Assembly (NCBI GenBank): GCA_025355385.1
Contig: JANXZS010000220.1
Span: 1 to 41,214, forward strand
Source: Acidobacteriaceae bacterium
Lineage (GTDB): Bacteria; Acidobacteriota; Terriglobia; Terriglobales; Acidobacteriaceae
DNA: 41,214 nt
Reading direction: 5' to 3'
The notes under the pieces are model-generated. The model was given only the letters and a program-made list of their open reading frames with translations. It searched no databases and was not told the origin of the DNA. A program made the position numbers and the translations under genes. This document shows, piece after piece, positions 28,931-39,952 of this stretch (positions are counted from its first letter, which is position 1; the number at the start of each line of letters is the position of its first letter).

Positions 28931-29317
28931 TGGAAACCCTCCCGCACAGCCATCAACGTTTCGAGATCTGTGCTTAGGCGATGCTCCTGATCTTCGGTAG
29001 TTTCCGTTTCATCTTGCGCGGCCTCGTACGCTGTATGCCTGCTGCGGCGTTCTCTTCCCTGCGGGCTACTTGCTTCATTGGTCAGGTGACACCGGGCGGC
29101 GCCTGGGTTCAGGCAAAAATATACTAAACTTAGTCGGCTTTTGCTCAAACTTAAACCACGAGACGGCTTGACTGGCGACGCTCATCCCGAGGATTGGTAA
29201 GAAGAAGTGACAACGAGCTTTGCGCTGCATTCTCCGTTACACGTCCGTCGGGGAAGAGCACAGCGCTCGTTGTGAAGGTTGACAGGGCATAACGTCGAAT
29301 CCAGTAAAGGGAACTAT
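28931..29317. other. Divergent control region between lctP-type and ketopantoate-reductase-like genes
   Basis: This region of 387 bases separates two divergent genes. It contains a small perfect hairpin (GCCTG-GGTT-CAGGC, about 29099-29116) followed by an A-rich run, and the longer inverted repeat at 29210-29273. A 73-codon open frame on the minus strand overlaps the lctP start, but its composition is not protein-like. Both promoters must lie here. Confidence 0.45.
29210..29273 (+). repeat. Long-range inverted repeat in the leader of the ketopantoate-reductase-like gene
   Basis: ACAACGAGC (29210-29218) and GCTCGTTGT (29265-29273) are exact complements. A second pair, GCGCTG (29222-29227) and CAGCGC (29261-29266), can form inside or compete with it. 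The element ends 44 bases before the ATG at 29318, so an mRNA leader could fold here. I do not recognise a riboswitch class. Confidence 0.45.
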
Positions 29318-30273
29318 ATGCGTATCCTCGTGGTTGGCGCCGGGCAATCGGCGGCTATTTTGGCGGCAGACTGCTTGAAGCAAATCTGGATGTGACCTTT
29401 CTTGTCCGTTCACAGCGTGCTGCCGAGTTGAACACTTCGGGTCTCAGAATTCGAAGCCGCTATGGAGATGTGAGCTTTCCTCATCCGAGGATCATCCTGA
29501 CCGAGAACCTCCGTGAGACCGTCGATCTCGTGTTGCTGAGTTGTAAGGCCTATGACCTGGAAGACGCGATTGCCTCCTTCGCGCCAGCAGTTGGGCCCGA
29601 CACAGTTATCCTGCCGCTGCTGAACGGCATGCGGCACCTGGACATTCTGGACGAGCGCTTTGGTCCTCAGCGCGTGCTCGGCGGGCAGTGCCTGATTGCC
29701 GTATCCCTCAACGAGGAGCGAGTGATCGTACACCTTAACGACACGCACGAGATGTCGTTTGGCGAACGCGATGGCACACTCTCGGATCGTGTCAAGGAAA
29801 TTGCAAGCTCCTTGGGAGCGGCGCGATTCGACGTTCGATCGAGCACGGAAATCATACTTGAGATGTGGGCGAAGTGGGTCTTCCTGGCTTCGCTGGCTGC
29901 CAGCACCTGCCTGATGCGGGCGACGATTGGAGATATCGCGGCGGCCACAATCGACACCGATCTTGTACTTGGCCTCCTTGAGGAGTGCGGCTCAATTGCC
30001 GCGGCCGAAGACTACCAAGTCCCGCAAGAGCGTGCGAAGCGTGCTCGCGACATGCTCACGGCCCCCGGCTCAGCCCTCACAGCCTCGATGCTCCGGGACA
30101 TTGAACGCAATGCCCCTATCGAAGCAGAGCATATCATCGGAGACCTCCTGCGACGCGGCCACAAGGGCTGTCCCTCTCAAAGCAAACTTTCGCTTCTGGG
30201 AATTGCCTACACCCACCTCAAGGCGTACGAAGCGCGACGAGCACGCATTCTCTCTTCGGCGTCGACTGGCTGA
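29318..30273 (+). pseudogene. Ketopantoate reductase family (ApbA/PanE-like), one-base frameshift near the N-terminus
   Basis: The ATG at 29318 has AAAGGGA upstream and starts MRILVVGAG, the Rossmann dinucleotide-binding strand. The frame then breaks at 29342-29344 (CGGGCAATC). In the next frame the family continues as AIGGYFGGRLLEANLDVTFL and stays open to 30273. One more G would restore GAGAIGG. The rest is complete: LLSCKAYDLEDAI, LPLLNGMRHLDIL, and the C-terminal helical domain with Lys in EMWAKWVFLA and SMLRDIERNAPIEAEHIIGDL. The intact enzyme would reduce 2-dehydropantoate or a related ketoacid with NADPH. A sequencing error in the G run is a real alternative to true inactivation. Confidence 0.75.
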
Positions 30274-30295: not shown

Positions 30296-32260
30296 TCATC
30301 GTTGGATTGCTCGCGGCATGGCAACGCGGGTAGCTATTCCTGGGATCGTCACGGGAAGGTGACCGCGAGCTGGCATTTCTCCGAAGAGGAATTTAACCGC
30401 GCTCAATTCGGAGACCGTGGCGCTCGAAAAGGTGCAGACATAGTTCTGGATAGCGGGATACTGAGCGATGACGTAAGGGTTGCCGAGGGCTACCGCCACA
30501 GTCTTCTCGTTGGCGGCCTTGATGACATTAGCCAGCACTGCGGACGAGCCGCGTTCGAGCATGGGTGATCCGGTATCGCTGCCGGTTGCGCGGCCTGCCG
30601 ATGGAGTGACGAAGACGGCGGCGACGACACGCTCGGCGTTCACAGATGCCTCCAAAACGTAGGGAGCGAGCAAGGCGGCCTGCTGATCATCTATAAAAAA
30701 GATGCGTGCATCAGGCACACGCATGCTGACTTCGCGAACAAAGGCGCGGCCGTCGCTGCCGCGCGCGTCGTCAGTAAAAACCAGGACGAGGAGATGATTG
30801 GCGGCGGCCACGGCAGCGTGGTAGGTGTACTCCGACGAAACGGCTGCGCTGCGCGTCAAGGGCAGCAGCTTTGCATCCTCACTGGCATTTAGCGATACTT
30901 TCTGACGCACCACGGTCACGGCATCATCGGCAATTTTCTGCGCGAGCGCGATATTCTCCGGACGGCTGACCTCGTTGTTGACCGAGTTGAGGTCCACCAG
31001 CCGATTTTTGTGCAAGCCCAGGGCTGCCTTGGCGCGCAGGACTTTGCGGACAGATTCGTCAATCCGGCTCGTAGAAATATCGCCGCTCTTCACGGCTTCC
31101 AGAACGCCGTTGTATGCGCCGTCAAGGTCAGCGGGGATGATGATCATGTCGGCTCCGGCCTTGACAGCCTCGACCGCAGCCTTGCCCGCACTCGTCCCTC
31201 TGTCGCCGCCAAAGATGCGGGTTACGCCGTTCATATCCATGGCATCGGTGACGATAATGCCGTGGAAGCCCATTTCCTCCCTCAGCAGTTTCGTGGTGAT
31301 GCTGTGCGAGATCGTTGCTACACGGTTCGGATCCGGCTCCAGAGCCGGGACCGAAAGATGGCCAACCATGATTGCATCCACACCTGCGGCAATGGCAGCA
31401 CGGAAGGGGGGCAGTTCTACCTGATCGAGCCGTTCGCGGCTGGCGGTTATGCGGGACACGGAAAGATGGGAATCCGTATCGGTGTCTCCGTGACCAGGAA
31501 AGTGTTTGGCCGTCGCCATGCCATGGGCCTCATGCACTCCGCGAATGTATGCCTTGACCAATTCACTCACTTCGCTCGGATCTTCACCGAAGGCGCGGGT
31601 ATTGATGATGGGATTGTTGGGATTGGAATTGACGTCTGCGTCAGGATAGAAGTTCCACTGGACACCGATGGCGCGCGCCTCCGCGGCACTTACCCGACCG
31701 AACTGATAGGCGTACTCGATACTGCCCGCGGCTCCAAAGGCCATAGCCTGGGGAAAGACGACGCCGCCGTGGAAGCGCATCGGAAGCCCGCGCTCGAAGT
31801 CGGCTGCGAAGAGCAGGGGCAGAGTACTGTCGCTCTGCAATTGGTTGGTGAGCGACGCCGCATCGAGGGGACTTCCCTTCTTCAGGAGACCACTCTCGAT
31901 GGGAGAAGTAACGACGAAACCTCCCAGGTGAAACTTCTTCATCGCGTCGGCGAGTTCAAGGTATTCGGGTCCGCTGAAGTTGAAGAAATCGACTCTCGCC
32001 CAGGGCATGAACAACTGGCCAACTTTTTCCTCCAGCGACATTTTCTGGAGAGTACCATCGGCCCAGTGAGCGCCGGATGGATCCTTCCCACTTGTCGGGC
32101 TCGCTGTTGTTGCGGCCGCAGTTGTGGCCCGCGCGCTTCGAGCGGTCTCGCTTGCAGCAGAAACAGGTGCGGCGGATGCCACGTCATCCAACACACTGGC
32201 GATCACCCATGCGAGAACGACGAAAGAGATCAACAAGGAATTCCGCATGATGGCAACCAT
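30296..32260 (-). CDS. nagZ: Exported GH3 beta-N-acetylglucosaminidase (NagZ-like)
   Basis: The 654-residue protein has a signal peptide (NSLLISFVVLAWVIASVL) and an Ala/Thr-rich linker. The GH3 barrel starts near residue 70 with MSLEEKVGQLFMPW. NagZ hallmarks are KHFPGHGDTDTDSHLSV, which carries the Asp-His dyad loop used as acid/base, and IIVTDAMDMNGV, whose first Asp is the nucleophile. A second domain from about residue 420 (DDAVTVVRQKV onward) resembles the C-terminal domain of the longer Bacillus-type enzyme. It removes terminal GlcNAc from peptidoglycan fragments outside the cytoplasm. It lies at the edge of the amiE-namZ/murQ region, divergent from it, supporting a cell-wall salvage role. 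Confidence 0.88.
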   Translation of the reverse strand: MVAIMRNSLLISFVVLAWVIASVLDDVASAAPVSAASETARSARATTAAATTASPTSGKDPSGAHWADGTLQKMSLEEKVGQLFMPWARVDFFNFSGPEYLELADAMKKFHLGGFVVTSPIESGLLKKGSPLDAASLTNQLQSDSTLPLLFAADFERGLPMRFHGGVVFPQAMAFGAAGSIEYAYQFGRVSAAEARAIGVQWNFYPDADVNSNPNNPIINTRAFGEDPSEVSELVKAYIRGVHEAHGMATAKHFPGHGDTDTDSHLSVSRITASRERLDQVELPPFRAAIAAGVDAIMVGHLSVPALEPDPNRVATISHSITTKLLREEMGFHGIIVTDAMDMNGVTRIFGGDRGTSAGKAAVEAVKAGADMIIIPADLDGAYNGVLEAVKSGDISTSRIDESVRKVLRAKAALGLHKNRLVDLNSVNNEVSRPENIALAQKIADDAVTVVRQKVSLNASEDAKLLPLTRSAAVSSEYTYHAAVAAANHLLVLVFTDDARGSDGRAFVREVSMRVPDARIFFIDDQQAALLAPYVLEASVNAERVVAAVFVTPSAGRATGSDTGSPMLERGSSAVLANVIKAANEKTVAVALGNPYVIAQYPAIQNYVCTFSSATVSELSAVKFLFGEMPARGHLPVTIPGIATRVAMPRAIQR

Positions 32261-32352
32261 AACACCTGAACAAAAATAGACGCCCTAGCGCCTGTTATGA
32301 AGTTTGCACCAAGATAGGTGCTTACGTTGGCTGGCGAATCTATCGATGATGG

Positions 32353-33493
32353 ATGGATGTCAAGCAAAGGAAAAGTGAGTTATCCGAGCGACGCGAGCCG
32401 AAAGAGCGCTTTGTCGAAGAGCTCGATTATGTGCAGCACATGCATCCGAACACGGTTCGCCGGGAAGGCAAGCTGGGCAGCGACGAGATGTTCGACCTGG
32501 CAGATCGGATGGGAATTTTGATCATGGCGGGCTGGTGCTGCTGCGATCACTGGGAGCACTGGGATAAATGGACGGCTCGCGATCATGAAATCGCGAGCGC
32601 CTCCCTGTTCAGCCAGATCAGCCGCTTGCGCGCCGGCCCCAGCGTGTTCCTTTGGCTGAACGGCAGCAACGGCCCTCCGCCAGCGGAGGTCGAGAGCGCT
32701 TCATCTGGCACCTGTATGACTATTACCTCGTGCCCGGTGGCGGATCTTTCGGTACGCGCAAGGCGAATGAACCGCTGCACGTGCAGTACAGATATGAAGA
32801 CCGTAGAGTTGTGGTGGTCAATTCGACGCTCAAGGCATATCGCAATCTCCGGATCGACGATAGACTGGGCGACCTTTTGGGAAAGCTGCTGTACCGGCAC
32901 AACTATTCTTCAGATGTGCCCCCCGACTCGATTACCGCCGCGTTCTCTCCGCCAGGCGCGAGGAGCTTGGGAACGAGGTCAGACTGGATACCGCAAATAG
33001 GCTTCACCAGCTTCCTGAAACTGGAAATTCGCGATGTTGCAGACAGGGTGTTGAGCGATAACTTTTACGTAGTACTGAAAAAGCCGGCAGATCTGCAGTG
33101 GGACAAGAGAAACTATTTCTATGCTCCGGCGAATAGCTACACTGACCTGCGCGATCTGGAGGAGATGCCAAAGGCTGAAGTTTGCGCGACCTTCGAATGG
33201 GAACCGACTGCCACGGGGGGGTTATCCATATTTCTAATGGCGGAAATCGTATCGCATTCTTCCTTCATATCACGGCGGTGAAGCCTGGCAGTAATGAAGA
33301 GATCGCGCCGGTTCTATGGAGTGACAATTTTATTTCCCTGCTTCCTGGAGAGTCACGCGAGCTTTCGTTTGAACTTCCCAAACTCACTCGCGACCGAGTG
33401 GAAGTCAAGCTTGAAGGTTGGAACATCGCCTCGCGAAACGTGACCGCGAAAAGCGCGAGTAAAACTATCGTTGCGATTCGTGAGCGGAGATGA
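32353..33493 (+). pseudogene. Fragments of a GH2 exo-beta-D-glucosaminidase (CsxA-like)
   Basis: Three consecutive frames match parts of one GH2 enzyme. Frame 1 has VEELDYVQHMHPNTVRREG, KLGSDEMFDLADRMGIL, AGWCCCDHWEHWDKW and GPSVFLWLNGSNGPPPAEVE. Near 32690-32705 it jumps to FIWHLYDYYLVPGGG and KANEPLHVQYRYEDR, so the intervening part of the catalytic region is deleted. A second break in a run of seven G at 33215-33221 shifts into SNGGNRIAFFLHITAV and SDNFISLLPGESREL. The N-terminal third is missing. The intact family removes glucosamine from chitosan ends. This copy is plainly dead. Confidence 0.75.
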
Positions 33494-33497
33494 CAAT

Positions 33498-33677
33498 ATG
33501 CGGAGCGGCGTACAGAATAATAAAAGCATTATGAGGATCGATAGTCGGTCCGCTCAGGCGGGATGTCGATTGCTCCTGTTGATATTCGTACTACTGTGGG
33601 GACCGGTCGCCATTGGCCAGCACTCCATTGCGAAGCCTGACTACGTGGTGTCAGTGCCACATCGGCCTGCCGTTTAG
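33498..33677 (+). pseudogene. Short secreted-protein N-terminus (60 codons), probable gene remnant
   Basis: The frame starts four bases after the end of the GH2 remnant. It has a positively charged start, a hydrophobic segment (GCRLLLLIFVLLWGPVAIGQ) and about 20 residues of mature-looking sequence before TAG. It reads like a signal peptide cut off from its protein. I cannot assign a family. A small exported peptide is possible but unlikely in this decayed stretch. Confidence 0.4.
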
Positions 33678-33756
33678 GGTACTGCCGTCGTAGCTCTACG
33701 GCGTGGTGTTGTGTGATGTGACGTCGGGGCGATGCTCGAGCGCTGGGGGTTTCAGA

Positions 33757-36169
33757 GTGAAACGTCATACTGAGCACCTTCGACTATCGTGCCTTGCTGT
33801 TGCCGTCGCTGCATTTTCCAGCGGATTGTTTGCCCAAAGCTTGCCAGCACAAAACGACGCGACCGTCTCCCATCAGGCGGTAACCCTCGCCAGCGTGGAT
33901 GAAATTATGAACTCAGCGGTTTCGCGCGGCACGATTCCGGGTGGCGTCGTCCTGGTTGGGCATGATGGCGAAGTGGTTTACCGCAAGGCTTTCGGTATGC
34001 GCTCGCTCGAGCCCGACCGGGAAACAATGACCGTGGATACGATCTTCGACCTTGCTTCTCTAACCAAGTGCATCGCCACTGCAACTTCCGCGATAAGACT
34101 GCTGCAGGAAGGCAAGCTGCGACTGAACGACCCAGTGGCGACGTATCTTCCCGAGTTCGGCCGGAATGGGAAAGAAGGTATCACGATCCGACAACTGCTG
34201 ACGCATTTCTCAGGCCTGAGGGAAGACCTCGATCTGAAGGCGCAATGGCAGGGACGCGATGCCGCGTATCAGATGGCCATGGATGAGAAGCCGATATTCT
34301 CCCCCGGATCGCGGTTCCTGTACAGCGACATCAACTTTGAAACGCTGGGATTTGTGGTCGAGCGAGTAAGTGGCATGGGCCTGGACGAGTACGCCGCAAG
34401 GCATGTGTTTCAGCCCCTCGCCATGAACAACACGCGCTTCCTGCCGCCCGCAGAATGGCGTGCTCGTATAGCGCCGACGGAGTACGACGAAAACCACCAG
34501 ATGCTTCGTGGCATTGTGCCATGATCCCACGGCGCGGCGCATGGGCGGCGTGGCGGGACATGCGGGGCTGTTCTCTACCGCGGACGATCTTGCAAAATAT
34601 GCGCAGGACCTGCTGAGCGGCTTCCATGTTCTTACCGCGCTCACGGTCCAGAAGATGTCGACTCCGCAACAACCGCCGACCGCTGCTTCGCTTCGCGCGC
34701 TGGGATGGGACATCGAATCGCCGTTTGCGAGCAATCGAGGAGAATTTCTTCCGGTAGGTTCGTTCGGACATACAGGATTCACGGGAACGTCCATCTGGAT
34801 CGACCCGCTGACGGACTGCTACGTAGTCCTCCTCAGCAATGCAGTTCATCCGCGAGGAGCTAATTCAGCGGTCGTTTCGTTGCGCGCGCGCGTGGCCTCC
34901 GCCGTGGCGCAGGAACTAAGGCTTACGGTGAGCGAGGACCAGAAGCTGCGATTAGCGCGCATTACCGGATACAACGAGACGATGTCATCGGCGCGGCTGT
35001 TGACCGCGCGCAATGGTTCGGTGCACACAGGCATTGACGTGCTGGAGAGCCACGATTTCGCTGAACTTAGAGAGGCGGGCAAGGCTAAAACGAGGATTGC
35101 CATCGTCACCAATCAGACCGGCGTGGATGCGCTAGGCAACCGCACCATCGACGTGCTGGCTTGGGCCCGAGGCATCGAGCTTGCTGCCATATTCAGCCCG
35201 GAGCACGGAGTGGCCGGGAAACTGGACACAACTGCGATTTCCGATTCGAAAGACGCCGCTACGGGAGTTCCTGTGCACAGCGTTTACGGCGATACGAGCG
35301 ACCAACGCCATCCGTCGCTGGAAGTTTTGCTTTCGGTGGATGCGATCGTGTACGACATTCAGGATATTGGGACGCGCTTCTATACCTACGAAACCACGCT
35401 AGGCTACTTCCTGGAAGCAGCGGCAAAGACGGGCAAGAAGATCTTCGTTCTGGATCGGCCCAATCCGATCAACGGCTCGTACGTTCAGGGGCCGATCAGC
35501 GACCGGGGACGCGAGAATTTTATCAACTACGGGTGGATTCCGATTCGACATGGGATGACGATGGGAGAGCTGGCGCGCCTCTATAACTGCGAGCGGGGGA
35601 TCCATGCATCGCTGACGGTGGTCCCGATGGAGGGCTGGCAGCGGGGCGACTGGATGGATTCAACGGGAATCTTGTGGGTGAACCCCTCTCCAAATATGCG
35701 CAATCGGGCGGAAGCTGTTCTCTACCCGGGACTCGGCATTTTGGAGGCGACGAATGTTTCTCTGGGGCGCGGCACCGATACACCGTTTGAAGTATTGGGC
35801 GCGCCTTAGATTCATGCCGTGGATCTGGCTGCCTACCTGAATGCGCGAGAAATCAGCGGCGTGCGCTTTGTACCCATTGAATTCACGCCGGACGTCGACG
35901 TGCACGCACAAAAGAAATGCGGCGGTGTGAATATCCTGGTCACGGATAGAAACGCGCTCGACGCGCCGGAGCTTGGCGTGGAGATTGCGTCCGCGCTGCA
36001 CACTCTGTATCCGGACCAGTTTGAGATGAAAAACCTGGACCACTTAATGCTCAATGATGCGACGATGCGCGCGATCAGTGCCGGGCAGGACCCTAGACGG
36101 GCGTGGATGGATTGGAACGACGCCATCGAGGCGTTCCAGACGATCCGGGTCAAATACTTGTTGTACTAG
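33757..36169 (+). pseudogene. AmiE-NamZ fusion: beta-lactamase-fold amidase joined to GH171 exo-beta-N-acetylmuramidase, with frameshift and internal TAG
   Basis: One gene spans three open pieces. The first (GTG at 33757, signal peptide then VDEIMNSAVSRGTIPGG) is a serine beta-lactamase-fold domain with the SxxK motif in LASLTK and the YxN motif in YSDIN. At 34519-34520 an extra C breaks the frame (RGIV, then HDPTARRMGG resumes). The domain ends with SFGHTGFTGTSIW. From about 35040 a complete NamZ-type (DUF1343) domain follows: FSPEHGVAG, YDIQDIGTRFYTYE, LDRPNPINGSY, PSPNMRN. At 35807-35809 GAP is followed by TAG where the family has Trp; the same frame then continues to YLLY and a TAG at 36169. 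Repaired length would be about 803 residues. AmiE-type enzymes cut MurNAc from stem peptide; NamZ releases terminal MurNAc. Confidence 0.82.
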
Positions 36170-36457
36170 TGCCGAAGGAAAGCTGCAGCGTCGAAGTATT
36201 TTTTTTGCGCGCCCATCCTTACGAGATGCGTTCATCCATCCTATTGCGGCGCTAGAGGATGGGATGCAGGCCGAGCGAGTCGAGCGTCCGGTGCGCTTGC
36301 TCCTGGCCAACCTGATCGATAAGAACCTTGCACAACTCGTCAGGAACCTACTTTGCTTTGCTGTGGATCAAGACTGACTGTTGATCTACCATGACCGTTT
36401 GTGATCGGACGCTACTGCTTGTTCGGTTTAGCGAGACACCAGGAGAGTGCGATACCC
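36170..36457. other. Gap before the symporter gene, with a possible antisense gene remnant
   Basis: A run of eight T at about 36209-36216 follows the stop of the AmiE-NamZ gene, but with only a weak short palindrome before it. On the minus strand, 36392-36252 reads MVDQQSVLIHSKAK, TAG, then VPDELCKVLIDQVGQEQAHR and LGLHPIL before a second TAG. The composition is protein-like and suggests the tail of a gene, but I cannot name the family. A Shine-Dalgarno-like AGGAG at 36441-36445 belongs to the symporter. Confidence 0.35.
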
Positions 36458-37954
36458 ATGGGGCTAAATGTTCTGGATATAGCCGTCATCGTGCTGTACC
36501 TGGCTTGCGTCACCACATTTGGTATGCGCTTCCGCAAGCAGCAGAGCACAATCAAGGGTCACTTTCTCGCCGAGAAGACGATCCCGTGGTGGGCCATTTC
36601 CCTCTCCATTGTTGCCGCGGAGACGAGTACGCTAACCATCATTAGCGTGCCGGGGATGGCCTACGAGAAGGATTTCGGCTTTCTTCAATTGGTGATCGGT
36701 TACCTCATCGGGCGCGTCATTATCAGCGTGCTGTTGATTCCGCATTATTTCCGTGGCGACCTGGTGACCGCGTATCAGCTGATCGAGCGGCGCTTCGGAC
36801 AGAGATTGCGTCCGCTCACGGCGGGCTTGTTCCTGATCACGCGCGCTGCCGCCGAAGGCGTCAGTGTCTTCGCCGTGGCCATCGTAGTTGGCATTGCACT
36901 CTCTGGTTTGCTCGGCAGTTTCAGCGACTTTGGGCGTGATGTTACGGCCATCGCGATCGTGACGATCCTGACTCTGCTCTACACTTTCAAGGGTGGCATG
37001 GCGGCCGTGATCTGGACCGACGTTGTACAGTTGACGGTCTACGTGACCGGAACTCTGATCGGCTTCGTCACGATTCTTCATCTTGTTCCGGGCGGGTGGC
37101 ATACGGTATACAGTGTCGCCTCAGCGGCGGGCAAGTTCCGGATCTTCGACTTCTCGTGGAACTTTTATGCGACCTATACGTTCTGGTCCGGAGTGATTGG
37201 AGGCTCCTTCCTCACCACGGCGAGCCATGGCACCGACCAGTTGATTGTTCAGCGGTTGCTTTCGGCCAGAAGCGAACGTCAGTCGAAGGTTGCGCTGCTC
37301 GCCAGTGGCGTGATGGTGCTGTTCCAGTTTTCGCTCTTCCTGATGATCGGCGCGATGCTGTTTGACTTGTATAGACTAGTTCCACCGGCGGTAGCGTTCA
37401 CGAGATCAGATACGATTTTCCCAACCTTTGTTGTCACTCGCATGCCGCACGGCATGAGTGGTCTGCTGATCTCGGCAATTCTGGCTGCGGCCATGTCCAG
37501 CCTGAGCGCTGCGCTCTACTCGCTCTCCTCAACGACCATCGTGGACTTCTACTCCAGGATCAATCCGGACGCGAGCGAGAAGCGGCGGCTTTTTTTATCG
37601 AGGGCAGCAACGGTTAGTTGGGGAGTGGTGCTGTTTGCGCTGGCGATTGTGGCGAGGCACGGAGGCAAGGTGCTTGAGGTGGGCCTCTCAATTGCCTCCG
37701 TGGCGTACGGCTCGCTCCTGGGAGTTCTGACGCGGAAAGCCTCTGAGAGTGGGTCTATGGTGGGCATGCTATGCGGATTCGTGCTGAACATTTATTTGTG
37801 GCAATTCACCAGGGTTCCGTTCACGTGGTATGTCCCGATGGGCAGCATCGCAACCTTCGTGATCGGCTATGGCGCAAGCTTCGTTCTGCTTAGGCCTGCA
37901 ACGGCGCTACCAGCAACAATCAGCGGAGCAATAGGGGGAATCGATGCGGCTTAG
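36458..37954 (+). CDS. Sodium:solute symporter (SSS family), candidate amino-sugar/MurNAc importer
   Basis: From the ATG at 36458 the product has 498 residues and about 13 membrane helices. AGGAG lies 12 bases upstream, and the frame is open for 19 more codons before. SSS features are KTIPWWAISLSIVAAETSTLT in the unwound first core helix, YLIGRVIISVLLIPHYFRGD, AAEGVSVFAVAIVVG, and TASHGTDQLIVQRLLSAR with the conserved Thr/Ser sodium-site region. The gene overlaps murQ by 11 bases and follows the AmiE-NamZ gene, so it probably imports a sugar released from peptidoglycan, such as MurNAc or anhydro-MurNAc. The solute is inferred from context; SSS-type import would leave the sugar unphosphorylated. 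Confidence 0.87.
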   Translation: MGLNVLDIAVIVLYLACVTTFGMRFRKQQSTIKGHFLAEKTIPWWAISLSIVAAETSTLTIISVPGMAYEKDFGFLQLVIGYLIGRVIISVLLIPHYFRGDLVTAYQLIERRFGQRLRPLTAGLFLITRAAAEGVSVFAVAIVVGIALSGLLGSFSDFGRDVTAIAIVTILTLLYTFKGGMAAVIWTDVVQLTVYVTGTLIGFVTILHLVPGGWHTVYSVASAAGKFRIFDFSWNFYATYTFWSGVIGGSFLTTASHGTDQLIVQRLLSARSERQSKVALLASGVMVLFQFSLFLMIGAMLFDLYRLVPPAVAFTRSDTIFPTFVVTRMPHGMSGLLISAILAAAMSSLSAALYSLSSTTIVDFYSRINPDASEKRRLFLSRAATVSWGVVLFALAIVARHGGKVLEVGLSIASVAYGSLLGVLTRKASESGSMVGMLCGFVLNIYLWQFTRVPFTWYVPMGSIATFVIGYGASFVLLRPATALPATISGAIGGIDAA

Positions 37955-38837
37955 CGGGCTGAAGACGGAGCGGCAGAACCGCGAATCGGCAAACCTGGAG
38001 AGGCTGAGTGCGCTGCAGATTGTAACGCTAATGAATCGGCAGGATGCCAAAGTTCTACGCGCAATCCGCCAGGCGCTTCCTGCGATTGCCCAGGCGATTG
38101 AGGTGATTCGTGGTCGCCTGGAACAAGGTGGGCGAATGATCTATGTGGGAAGCGGAACAAGCGGAAGAATTGGCGCACTGGACGCTTCGGAGTGCCCACC
38201 CACATTCGGCACGGATCCGGCCATGATCCAGTACCTGATAGCCGGCGGCGACCTTGCGTTGACCATTGCCAGCGAAGCGAGTGAGGATTCGGCTGTGCTG
38301 GGCGCGAGCGACATGGCGGCGAGACGACCGGGGAAAAAGGATGTTGTTGTGGGACTCTCCGCCAGCGGCCAAACCCCGTATACCGTCGCGGCGCTCAAAT
38401 ACGCAGCGGTAAAGGGCACGGCCACCATCGCGATCGCCTGCAATTCCGGCTCGCAGTTGGGAAGGGTTTCCGATGTTGCCATCGAGGCCGTGGTAGGTCC
38501 GGAAATACTCACCGGCTCCACTCGTCTGAAAGCCGGAACCGCACAGAAACTGATTTGCAACATGCTTACAACGGGCGCCCTATCTCGTCTCGGCTACGTG
38601 TATTGCAACCTGATGGTCAATGTCCAACTGAAGAACGAGAAGTTGATCGAGCGCGGAATTTCGATTGTGCAGCGCGTTGCCAAGGTAGACCGGACCGTTG
38701 CGCTCAACAGCCTGGCAGTCGCGGACATGAAAGTTCCCGTGGCGTTGGTAATGCTCTGCGCCAAAGTGGACAAGCGAGAGGCCGCGCGCCGCCTGAAGCG
38801 CTCACAAAACAACATCCGCAAGGCGATTGAAGCGTAA
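37944..38837 (+). CDS. murQ: MurQ, N-acetylmuramic acid 6-phosphate etherase
   Basis: The 297-residue product has the SIS fold of MurQ with all family marks: MIYVGSGTSGRIGALDASEC with the catalytic Glu (Glu83-equivalent), a second Glu in IASEASEDSAVLG, GLSASGQTPY for phosphate binding, and TGSTRLKAGTAQKLICNML. It cleaves the lactyl ether of MurNAc-6-phosphate, giving GlcNAc-6-phosphate and D-lactate. It overlaps the symporter gene by 11 bases, so the two are translationally linked, with GGGGG about six bases before the ATG. A kinase must supply the substrate, since the transporter is not a PTS; none is visible. The gene itself is intact. Confidence 0.95.
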   Translation: MRLSGLKTERQNRESANLERLSALQIVTLMNRQDAKVLRAIRQALPAIAQAIEVIRGRLEQGGRMIYVGSGTSGRIGALDASECPPTFGTDPAMIQYLIAGGDLALTIASEASEDSAVLGASDMAARRPGKKDVVVGLSASGQTPYTVAALKYAAVKGTATIAIACNSGSQLGRVSDVAIEAVVGPEILTGSTRLKAGTAQKLICNMLTTGALSRLGYVYCNLMVNVQLKNEKLIERGISIVQRVAKVDRTVALNSLAVADMKVPVALVMLCAKVDKREAARRLKRSQNNIRKAIEA

Positions 38838-38959
38838 CGGAACTAATGTTTGATTCGGCTGTCTGGCGAAATGACCCCAAGGCTGTTGTGATAATCAACC
38901 GGATCGGGCCGCGGTTGTGCCGCTCAATCGGTATCGTCAGGGACATCGAAGCTAACAAG

Positions 38960-39088
38960 TTACCTCCTGAATCCGCGAGTCTTGACAGCACCGTATGCCA
39001 CGCCTGTGAGCAGCCAGAGAGCACCGAAGATCTTAGTGGTGGTGGCCAAGTTCCACCAGATGAAGGCGCAGATGGCGAAAGTCAGGGT
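38960..39088 (-). pseudogene. C-terminal remnant of an APC-type amino-acid permease
   Basis: The 42 codons before a TAA read TLTFAICAFIWWNLATTTKI, then FGALWLLTGVAYGAVKTRGF and two Arg. Two hydrophobic helices and the tail resemble the end of APC-superfamily permeases. A TAG in the same frame lies just upstream and no further homology precedes it, so only the last part of the gene remains. The surrounding 38838-39190 gap holds nothing else I can identify. Confidence 0.45.
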
Positions 39089-39190
39089 CTAGGCGGCTAG
39101 GCCGGAACGTTCTGATTTCGCTTTACGCGAATGATTGATGCTGATTGTATCCGAGAGCTTCTTTTACTCAACAAGCTGAAACGAACAGCT

Positions 39191-39952
39191 TCAAACGATG
39201 GTGATTTTGATTCCGCTTGCGCGTAGTTCGTCCAGCATCTTGGCGGGTGCCTACTTGTCGGTGATGATCTGGTGAATGGCTGTAATAGGAACGATCGACG
39301 AGAGGCTGCGGCAGCCAAACTTACTGGCGTCGCAAACGGCCACCACCTGCTGGGCCGCGTGAACCATCTTGCGATTCAGCACAGCTTCCAGCATGTTGGA
39401 GGTTGAAAGACCGAATCGCGGGTCAATTCCCTCCACGCCCAGGAACAATATGTCTGCTTTTAAGTGGGCCAGTGAATCTTCAGCCAATGGGCCGATCATC
39501 GAGAAAGAGTGCTTGCGCATCATTCCGCCGGTGAGGATCACATCCACTGTTCCGCCTGCAAGTTCAGTGGCGATATCAATGGCGTTGGTGATGACCGTCA
39601 ACCGATTGAAGAAGCGCAATTGGCAGGCGATAGCCGTGGTGGTGGAATCAGAGTCCAGTAAAACGGACTGGCCATCTTTGACGAACTTTGCAGCGGCGGC
39701 GGCGATCCTGAGTTTTTCGCGCGGATGCTGAATTTCGCGCTCGATCAGGCTTTGATCCGCATCCAAGGATCCGAGGACGTAAAGCGCTCCGCCATGCGTG
39801 CGGCAGACACGCCCCCGGTGATCTAATACGTCCAGATCACGCCGAATCGTGATGTCCGAAGTTCCGAATAGCCGGGCCAAATCGGAAACCACTGCGCGAC
39901 CGTTTCGCTCGATTACTCCAACAATGCTTAGTCGCCGTTCTTCGATGAGCAT
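39191..39952 (-). pseudogene. DeoR-family regulator with a TAG 22 codons before its natural end
   Basis: The open frame from ATG 39952 runs 233 codons. Residues 5-55 form the DeoR helix-turn-helix with the signature SDITIRRDLDVLDHRGRVCR and THGGA. The rest is the sugar-phosphate-sensing DeoR domain (LDSDSTTTAIACQL, TNAIDIATELAGG, ILTGGMMRKHS, LGVEGIDPRFGLS, VVAVCDASKFG). At 39251-39253 TAG follows IITDK, and the same frame then continues with the usual family ending (APAKMLDELRASGIKITIV) to TGA at 39191. A CAG-to-TAG change would explain it. The shortened protein may still work. It is convergent with murQ and probably senses a phosphorylated amino sugar. Confidence 0.8.

Follow-up and report, generated by a model that had tools for sequence, protein, structure and literature searches.

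A candidate symporter-based locus for N-acetylmuramic acid salvage in Acidobacteriaceae, and single-chain symporter-AmiE-NamZ fusions among its relatives

Genes of the locus

The window analysed here, i.e. the whole stretch of 41,214 bp, is the complete contig JANXZS010000220.1 (C81) of an Acidobacteriaceae genome of 4.63 Mb distributed across 321 contigs. It carries genes related to those of the salvage of N-acetylmuramic acid (MurNAc) from peptidoglycan, grouped around a symporter of the SSS (solute:sodium symporter) family. The features concerned are the following.

30296..32260, minus strand: NagZ-like, putatively secreted GH3 exo-beta-N-acetylglucosaminidase (PF00933, E 9.6e-81)
32353..~33493, plus strand: GH2-like remnant, broken over several frames (three-frame translation), between nagZ and amiE
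33703..34524, plus strand: N-terminal piece of an AmiE-like beta-lactamase-fold domain, until a frame change (PF00144, E 4.4e-52)
34508..35809, plus strand: C-terminal piece of AmiE, NamZ_N and the start of NamZ_C, closed by an in-frame TAG (PF00144, E 1.3e-14; PF07075, E 4.3e-74; PF20732, E 5e-10)
35810..36169, plus strand: remainder of NamZ_C beyond the in-frame stop (PF20732, E 2.9e-27)
36401..37954, plus strand: SSS-family symporter, proposed importer of MurNAc or of an amino sugar (TIGR00813, 208 bits, cut-off 184)
37944..38837, plus strand: MurQ, MurNAc-6-phosphate etherase (TIGR00274, 343.8 bits, cut-off 302)
39251..39952, minus strand: DeoR-class regulator (PF00455, E 4.2e-47; PF08220)

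Pfam and NCBIfam profiles confirm the grouping of GH3, AmiE and NamZ domains, symporter, MurQ and DeoR-class regulator that a first-pass annotation had described, except that AmiE-NamZ does not form one frame. The 11 bp overlap between the symporter gene and murQ is exact (37944-37954), and the start of the symporter in relatives corresponds to the ATG at 36458. The best NCBIfam model of the GH3 protein, whose N-terminus resembles a signal sequence by eye, is PRK05337 (140.5 bits, below the cut-off of 207). One piece of the GH2-like remnant weakly matches GalB (E 2.4e-5) and two others have no Pfam match. In a profile search of the whole genome, the NamZ_N of the window was the sole match. Several relatives (L040, L090, L092-L094 and L097) encode AmiE-NamZ as a single frame of 772-932 amino acids. 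An enolase-superfamily gene lies inside the cluster in L040, L097 and L187; the best NCBIfam match of the L040 protein is the racemase DgcA, followed by an L-Ala-D/L-Glu epimerase, both below cut-off, hinting that the peptide part of the wall might be used as well.

The DeoR gene lies 413 bp beyond murQ on the opposite strand, and its best NCBIfam model is AgaR (226 bits, below the cut-off of 260). A search of 113 related symporter loci (see below) yielded no homologue of this gene at a distance of up to 7 kb. It was dropped as regulator of the pathway and probably lies outside the conserved unit, which removes the basis on which a different class of regulator had been attributed to this pathway.

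Neighbourhoods of related symporters

Among 150 sampled genomes of the family, 113 (the source genome included) contain a match to the symporter at E<=1e-120. Neighbourhoods were read at 113 loci besides that of the window, from 112 genomes, one of which has two copies; a gene was called a neighbour when it gave a BLAST match of at least 28% identity and at least 60 bits no more than 7 kb from the symporter. At least one marker (NamZ, MurQ, BadF-class kinase, GH20 or NagZ) is found at 92 of these 113 loci. NamZ is adjacent to the symporter at 27 and fused to it at 11, i.e. 38 of 113, where a rough sum assuming one NamZ per 4.5-Mb genome gives a chance expectation of about 0.4. A BadF kinase is found at 55 loci (51 of one kind and 4 of another), GH20 at 28, NagA at 10, secreted NagZ at 6 and MurQ at 4. 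A second set comprises 80 named loci, the best 80 of 562, 27 of which are shared with the first set (166 distinct loci overall); 42 of its 53 additional loci have a marker. A wider search of the phylum matched the symporter at E<=1e-75 in 169 of 396 genomes, of which 129, by our count, lie outside the family; a marker is present at 11 of 20 loci picked by hand from these. The homologues are not consistently found beside unrelated sugar genes, an arrangement that the first-pass annotation had regarded as contrary to its proposal: of the 113 loci, only the 21 left by the count above lack a marker. Taken as a whole, this context supports an association of the symporter with genes for amino sugars and peptidoglycan.

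Three loci of another family, f30, bring together most of the genes in question. In L305, the genes for the BadF kinase, MurQ, the symporter, NagZ and AmiE-NamZ succeed one another on the same strand. In L306 and L299, those for BadF, MurQ, the symporter and NagZ share a strand, and NamZ points away from them. These loci show the linked kinase that is absent from the window.

A symporter tree of 105 rows (9 of the 114 symporters were omitted, here and in the residue counts below; quick method, SH-aLRT support only, midpoint root) places that of the window in a clade of 10 rows (SH-aLRT 99) that are MurQ-linked, NamZ-linked or unmarked. This clade is nested in a larger BadF-linked group, away from a clade of 34 rows with adjacent NamZ, fused NamZ or GH20 (SH-aLRT 100). 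As NamZ occurs in two separated and supported clades, its linkage to the symporter arose, or was kept, at least twice separately.

Besides the window, seven distinct loci, including one from Terracidiphilus gabretensis, have a MurQ linked to the symporter. Six of these MurQ form a clade with that of the window (support 100/97) and the seventh (L049/L014) branches elsewhere. The genome encodes a second MurQ on contig C151 (L038:8096-11666), beside an AmiE-like gene and a gene that resembles MurA by eye. Similar arrangements occur at L041, L043, L045, L048, L050, L051, L056 and L057, and several loci of this type hold a further AmiE-NamZ gene. From its gene content, this is a conserved cluster of putative recycling plus synthesis functions.

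Symporter-AmiE-NamZ fusions

A single frame encoding both symporter and NamZ was found at 11 of the 113 loci and at 12 of the 80, i.e. 22 of the 166 distinct loci; the symporter of the window is not fused. Eight of the fused proteins, including those of Granulicella sp. S156, Edaphobacter lichenicola and E. aggregans, were tested with Pfam, and each chain contains all four domains (SSF, Beta-lactamase, NamZ_N and NamZ_C). The fused frames, found in Granulicella, Edaphobacter and others, measure from 1258 codons, where the contig ends within the frame, to 1582. In unfused relatives, the symporter and AmiE-NamZ genes may overlap or be separated by no more than 0-5 bp. A locus labelled Verrucomicrobia, possibly by mistake (L282), resembles those of Acidobacteriaceae in carrying an SSS-NamZ fusion, GH20, NagA and BadF.

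Past the last helix of the symporter, the fused proteins show a short and often basic stretch followed by a second hydrophobic segment, visible in the hydropathy profile of at least eight of the 11 fusions of the first set. The end of this segment looks like that of a signal peptide in several of them (by eye; 4 of the 11 have a strict A-x-A followed by Q). Given 13 helices, the C-terminus of the solved symporter SiaT inside the cell and an additional hydrophobic segment, the hydrolases would be outside; they are thus probably extracytoplasmic. An AlphaFold model of 960 residues of one fused chain (L277) had a mean confidence score (pLDDT) of 41.4 and was not used. The fusion could be a transporter carrying its own extracytoplasmic wall-digesting enzymes, which would free MurNAc at its mouth, or a polyprotein cut at an internal signal. 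Either way, it could be taken as Rosetta-stone evidence that this family of symporters, that of the window included, imports MurNAc, a proposal that we hold to be evenly balanced.

Family and fold of the symporter

Besides its TIGR00813 match, the symporter of the window has as nearest solved sequence and fold SiaT, a symporter of an acidic amino sugar (27% identity in the fold alignment). The AlphaFold model (mean pLDDT 69.2 for the best of five, the others reaching 37.6-43.4) was used only for the fold and the number of helices; by our own grouping, 13 membrane helices are predicted. SiaT likewise has 13 helices with the C-terminus inside, and its sodium-site residues are described in PMC5931594. 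The equivalents of its Asp182 (Na3) and Ser345 are kept in all 105 rows, and that of Ser342 is a serine in 102.

Kinases and other recycling genes of the genome

Searches of the whole genome for the PTS domain EIIC (PF02378) gave no match, with a control positive in 7 of 14 genomes. The PTS route was therefore dropped. As no EIIC is detected, MurNAc would enter unphosphorylated and would need a kinase.

The first-pass annotation had seen no kinase. This is correct for the window contig, where PF03702, PF01869 and PF01636 found none, but not for the genome, where two BadF/BadG-class kinases (PF01869, on contigs C91 and C178), an AnmK and an AmgK/MurU-like pair are encoded on other contigs. The best solved match of both BadF kinases is 8zo3, an 'N-acetylmuramic acid/N-acetylglucosamine kinase' (E 1.3e-26 and 1.8e-25), and human N-acetylglucosamine (GlcNAc) kinase ranks third or lower (E 3.5e-13 and 9e-11). 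The kinase of C91 is convergent with NagA (314.9 bits, cut-off 225.65). In a kinase tree, both group with the four that lie next to NagA at loci with linked or fused NamZ, and this group is separated (100/100) from the other 51 symporter-linked kinases. A protein of some 265 amino acids (L100:11725-12522), which matches no Pfam family, neighbours the BadF kinase; its homologues occur at 44 of the 113 loci. In L111 (7335-9123), the reading frame of the genome's second BadF kinase is overlapped by a CutC-like gene, and in L096 (146-1042) such a gene neighbours the symporter.

Contig C241 encodes, in one operon, an AnmK (NF007148, 482.6 bits, cut-off 387) and a NagZ of cytoplasmic type, its location being judged by eye (NF003740, 233.8 bits, cut-off 207). 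AnmK was found in 53 of the 61 genomes searched. At this locus (L001/L039), the AnmK gene overlaps nagZ and is followed by a gene for an SBP_bac_5 solute-binding protein. AmpG was dropped as entry route since TIGR00901 gave no match in the genome at E<=0.001, with a control positive in 5 of 14 genomes, although a divergent AmpG could exist. These two observations suggest that muropeptides may enter through an ABC transporter. Contig C246 (L205:1348-3530) encodes an AmgK-like kinase (62.6 bits, cut-off 500) whose APH domain is joined to the C-terminal domain of RapZ. It is followed by a MurU-like transferase (132.2 bits, cut-off 250), and both matches are below cut-off.

Proposed pathway and alternatives

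NagZ, AmiE and NamZ release MurNAc outside the cell, MurK-class kinases convert it to MurNAc-6-phosphate and MurQ converts the latter to GlcNAc-6-phosphate. In the light of the data above, it seems fairly probable that the window carries the acidobacterial form of a locus for MurNAc salvage without a PTS. The following model can be drawn. The secreted NagZ would trim GlcNAc, and the AmiE-like and NamZ domains, which are normally fused in a single secreted protein, would strip the peptide and free MurNAc. The SSS symporter would import free MurNAc, and perhaps GlcNAc too, presumably with sodium. An unlinked kinase of the BadF/MurK class would then produce MurNAc-6-phosphate, which MurQ, encoded with the symporter, would convert to GlcNAc-6-phosphate, and the NagA encoded on a kinase contig would deacetylate this product. 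In an alternative branch, the AmgK/MurU-like pair might route MurNAc to UDP-MurNAc.

A number of observations, given here and with the first two alternatives below, weigh against this reading. The 21 family loci without marker are joined by 9 of the 20 hand-picked extra-family loci; 13 of the 21 retain the APC permease usual at BadF-linked loci, and some lie near contig edges. In all 105 rows, Arg135, which binds the substrate in SiaT, is replaced by alanine. The equivalent of the Na2 ligand Ser343 is an asparagine in 101 rows (a serine in the window), so that the evidence from the predicted sodium site is mixed. The 'Putative novel MurNAc kinase' 8ow9 matches one of the BadF kinases at E 8e-5, less well than human GlcNAc kinase, and is unlisted for the other.

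It is possible, although we rather doubt it, that the locus has become a decaying relic in this particular genome, without a working pathway. AmiE-NamZ is interrupted by a frame change within the beta-lactamase domain (~34508-34524, near 34,515) and by an in-frame TAG within NamZ_C (35807-35809), and no other NamZ is encoded in the genome. Five residues near position 440, in a conserved helix, are missing from the symporter. Compared with L090, this is an in-frame deletion of 15 bp between imperfect repeats, and the stretch is present in the 13 other rows of alignment A1. The symporter also deviates at four sites common to at least 97% of the other rows, the median being one. These four substitutions are unexceptional, as L169, L171 and the truncated L199 have seven, L150 has six and four other rows have four; L104 and L199, too, have gaps in columns that are almost universally occupied. 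Because other rows match or exceed its substitutions, only the deletion stands out. The GH2-like remnant and a panE-like gene (28940-30273) with an apparent frame change near 29.3 kb, seen by eye, add to the lesions, which cluster between 29 and 38 kb (panE-like gene, GH2 remnant, AmiE-NamZ and symporter). On the other side, the frames of MurQ and NagZ are open, another AmiE-like gene is found on C151, and the ratios of nonsynonymous to synonymous substitution rates (dN/dS) against L090 are low, both for the three AmiE-NamZ pieces (0.148, 0.080 and 0.076) and for the open genes of NagZ (0.084, with dS saturated), the symporter and MurQ (0.084-0.094 over the three), these values being crude at a dS of 1.1-2.5. 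Any loss would thus be recent, or the lesions would be sequence errors. With AmiE-NamZ interrupted and a symporter helix shortened, this copy may have been inactivated not long ago, or errors may be present in the sequence here.

The alternative that concerns the whole family is that the symporter imports GlcNAc or N-acetyl-hexosamines in general, the BadF kinase being NagK-like and MurQ and NamZ lying nearby because peptidoglycan and chitin also give GlcNAc. The GH20 and NagA neighbours (28 and 10 of 113 loci) suit GlcNAc equally well, and NagK_SO3507 is, although below its cut-off, the NCBIfam model that best fits the three BadF kinases tested. Moreover, 2 of 37 family genomes (G004 and G030) encode the symporter and the kinase but lack a genuine MurQ (best matches at E 3.3e-4 and 6.6e-4), which makes a MurQ-independent route or GlcNAc possible. 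We nevertheless regard this explanation as unlikely: NamZ, adjacent or fused at more than a third of the family loci, frees MurNAc and not GlcNAc, and murQ overlaps the symporter gene in the window and, in L305 and L306, forms a row with the symporter and BadF genes.

It is very improbable that the symporter imports 1,6-anhydro-MurNAc or a disaccharide with AnmK as the kinase: AnmK shares its operon with a cytoplasmic NagZ and is widespread, but it lies beside none of the 113 symporters although it was in the reference set, and was dropped as their dedicated partner, whereas kinases of the free-sugar class do occur there and NamZ yields free MurNAc.

Comparison with known systems

The set of Bacillus subtilis (murQ-murR-murP-amiE-nagZ-namZ) includes a PTS permease and an RpiR-class regulator. 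The window shares with it MurQ and the domains of all its secreted hydrolases (the AmiE-NamZ frame being broken and secretion being judged by eye). It differs from it by an SSS symporter instead of the EIIC protein MurP, by AmiE and NamZ belonging to one protein and by a neighbouring regulator of the DeoR class.

A close likeness is that with Tannerella forsythia, from another phylum, for which PMC5790795 describes a non-PTS MurNAc salvage by murT (sodium symporter superfamily)-murK-murQ and reports no PTS-type transporters; MurT and MurK are encoded in an operon with MurQ (PMC5790795 and PMC10465942). As this system is already published, salvage of MurNAc by a symporter is a known kind, and the 'variant pathway' of the first-pass annotation is not a new one. 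The likeness is one of gene content: a transporter of the sodium symporter superfamily (here above the TIGR00813 cut-off and of SiaT-like fold), a BadF-class (PF01869) kinase, a MurQ beside the transporter and no PTS. The kinase is linked in T. forsythia, whereas both BadF kinases of the present genome lie on contigs other than the window, which in turn co-locates a secreted NagZ and an AmiE-NamZ of the fused type. The AmpG-NagZ-AnmK type of recycling is represented only by the cytoplasmic NagZ and AnmK of C241. As for SiaT, the sialic acid symporter of Proteus mirabilis (5nv9/5nva), the conserved Na3 aspartate unites it with the acidobacterial family, from which it is separated by the low identity and by the substitutions at Arg135 and Ser343.

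What is new here is the family-wide pattern of linkage and the symporter-AmiE-NamZ fusions in a single chain. No description of an acidobacterial AmiE-NamZ symporter version or of such a fusion was found in the literature searched, partly by title, outside of which most subscription journals lie. Acidobacteria are abundant in soil and must meet much peptidoglycan from dead cells. The symporter is a candidate MurNAc importer in a genome where no EIIC is detected, and would carry the Tannerella model into another phylum. The fusion offers an unusual transporter-hydrolase to study. SSS domains fused to another function are known from sensor kinases such as CbrA (PMC7918813). The acidobacterial fusions resemble these in joining an SSS domain to another function in one chain, but their partner, instead of a sensor kinase, is a probably extracytoplasmic AmiE-NamZ that follows a signal-like segment.

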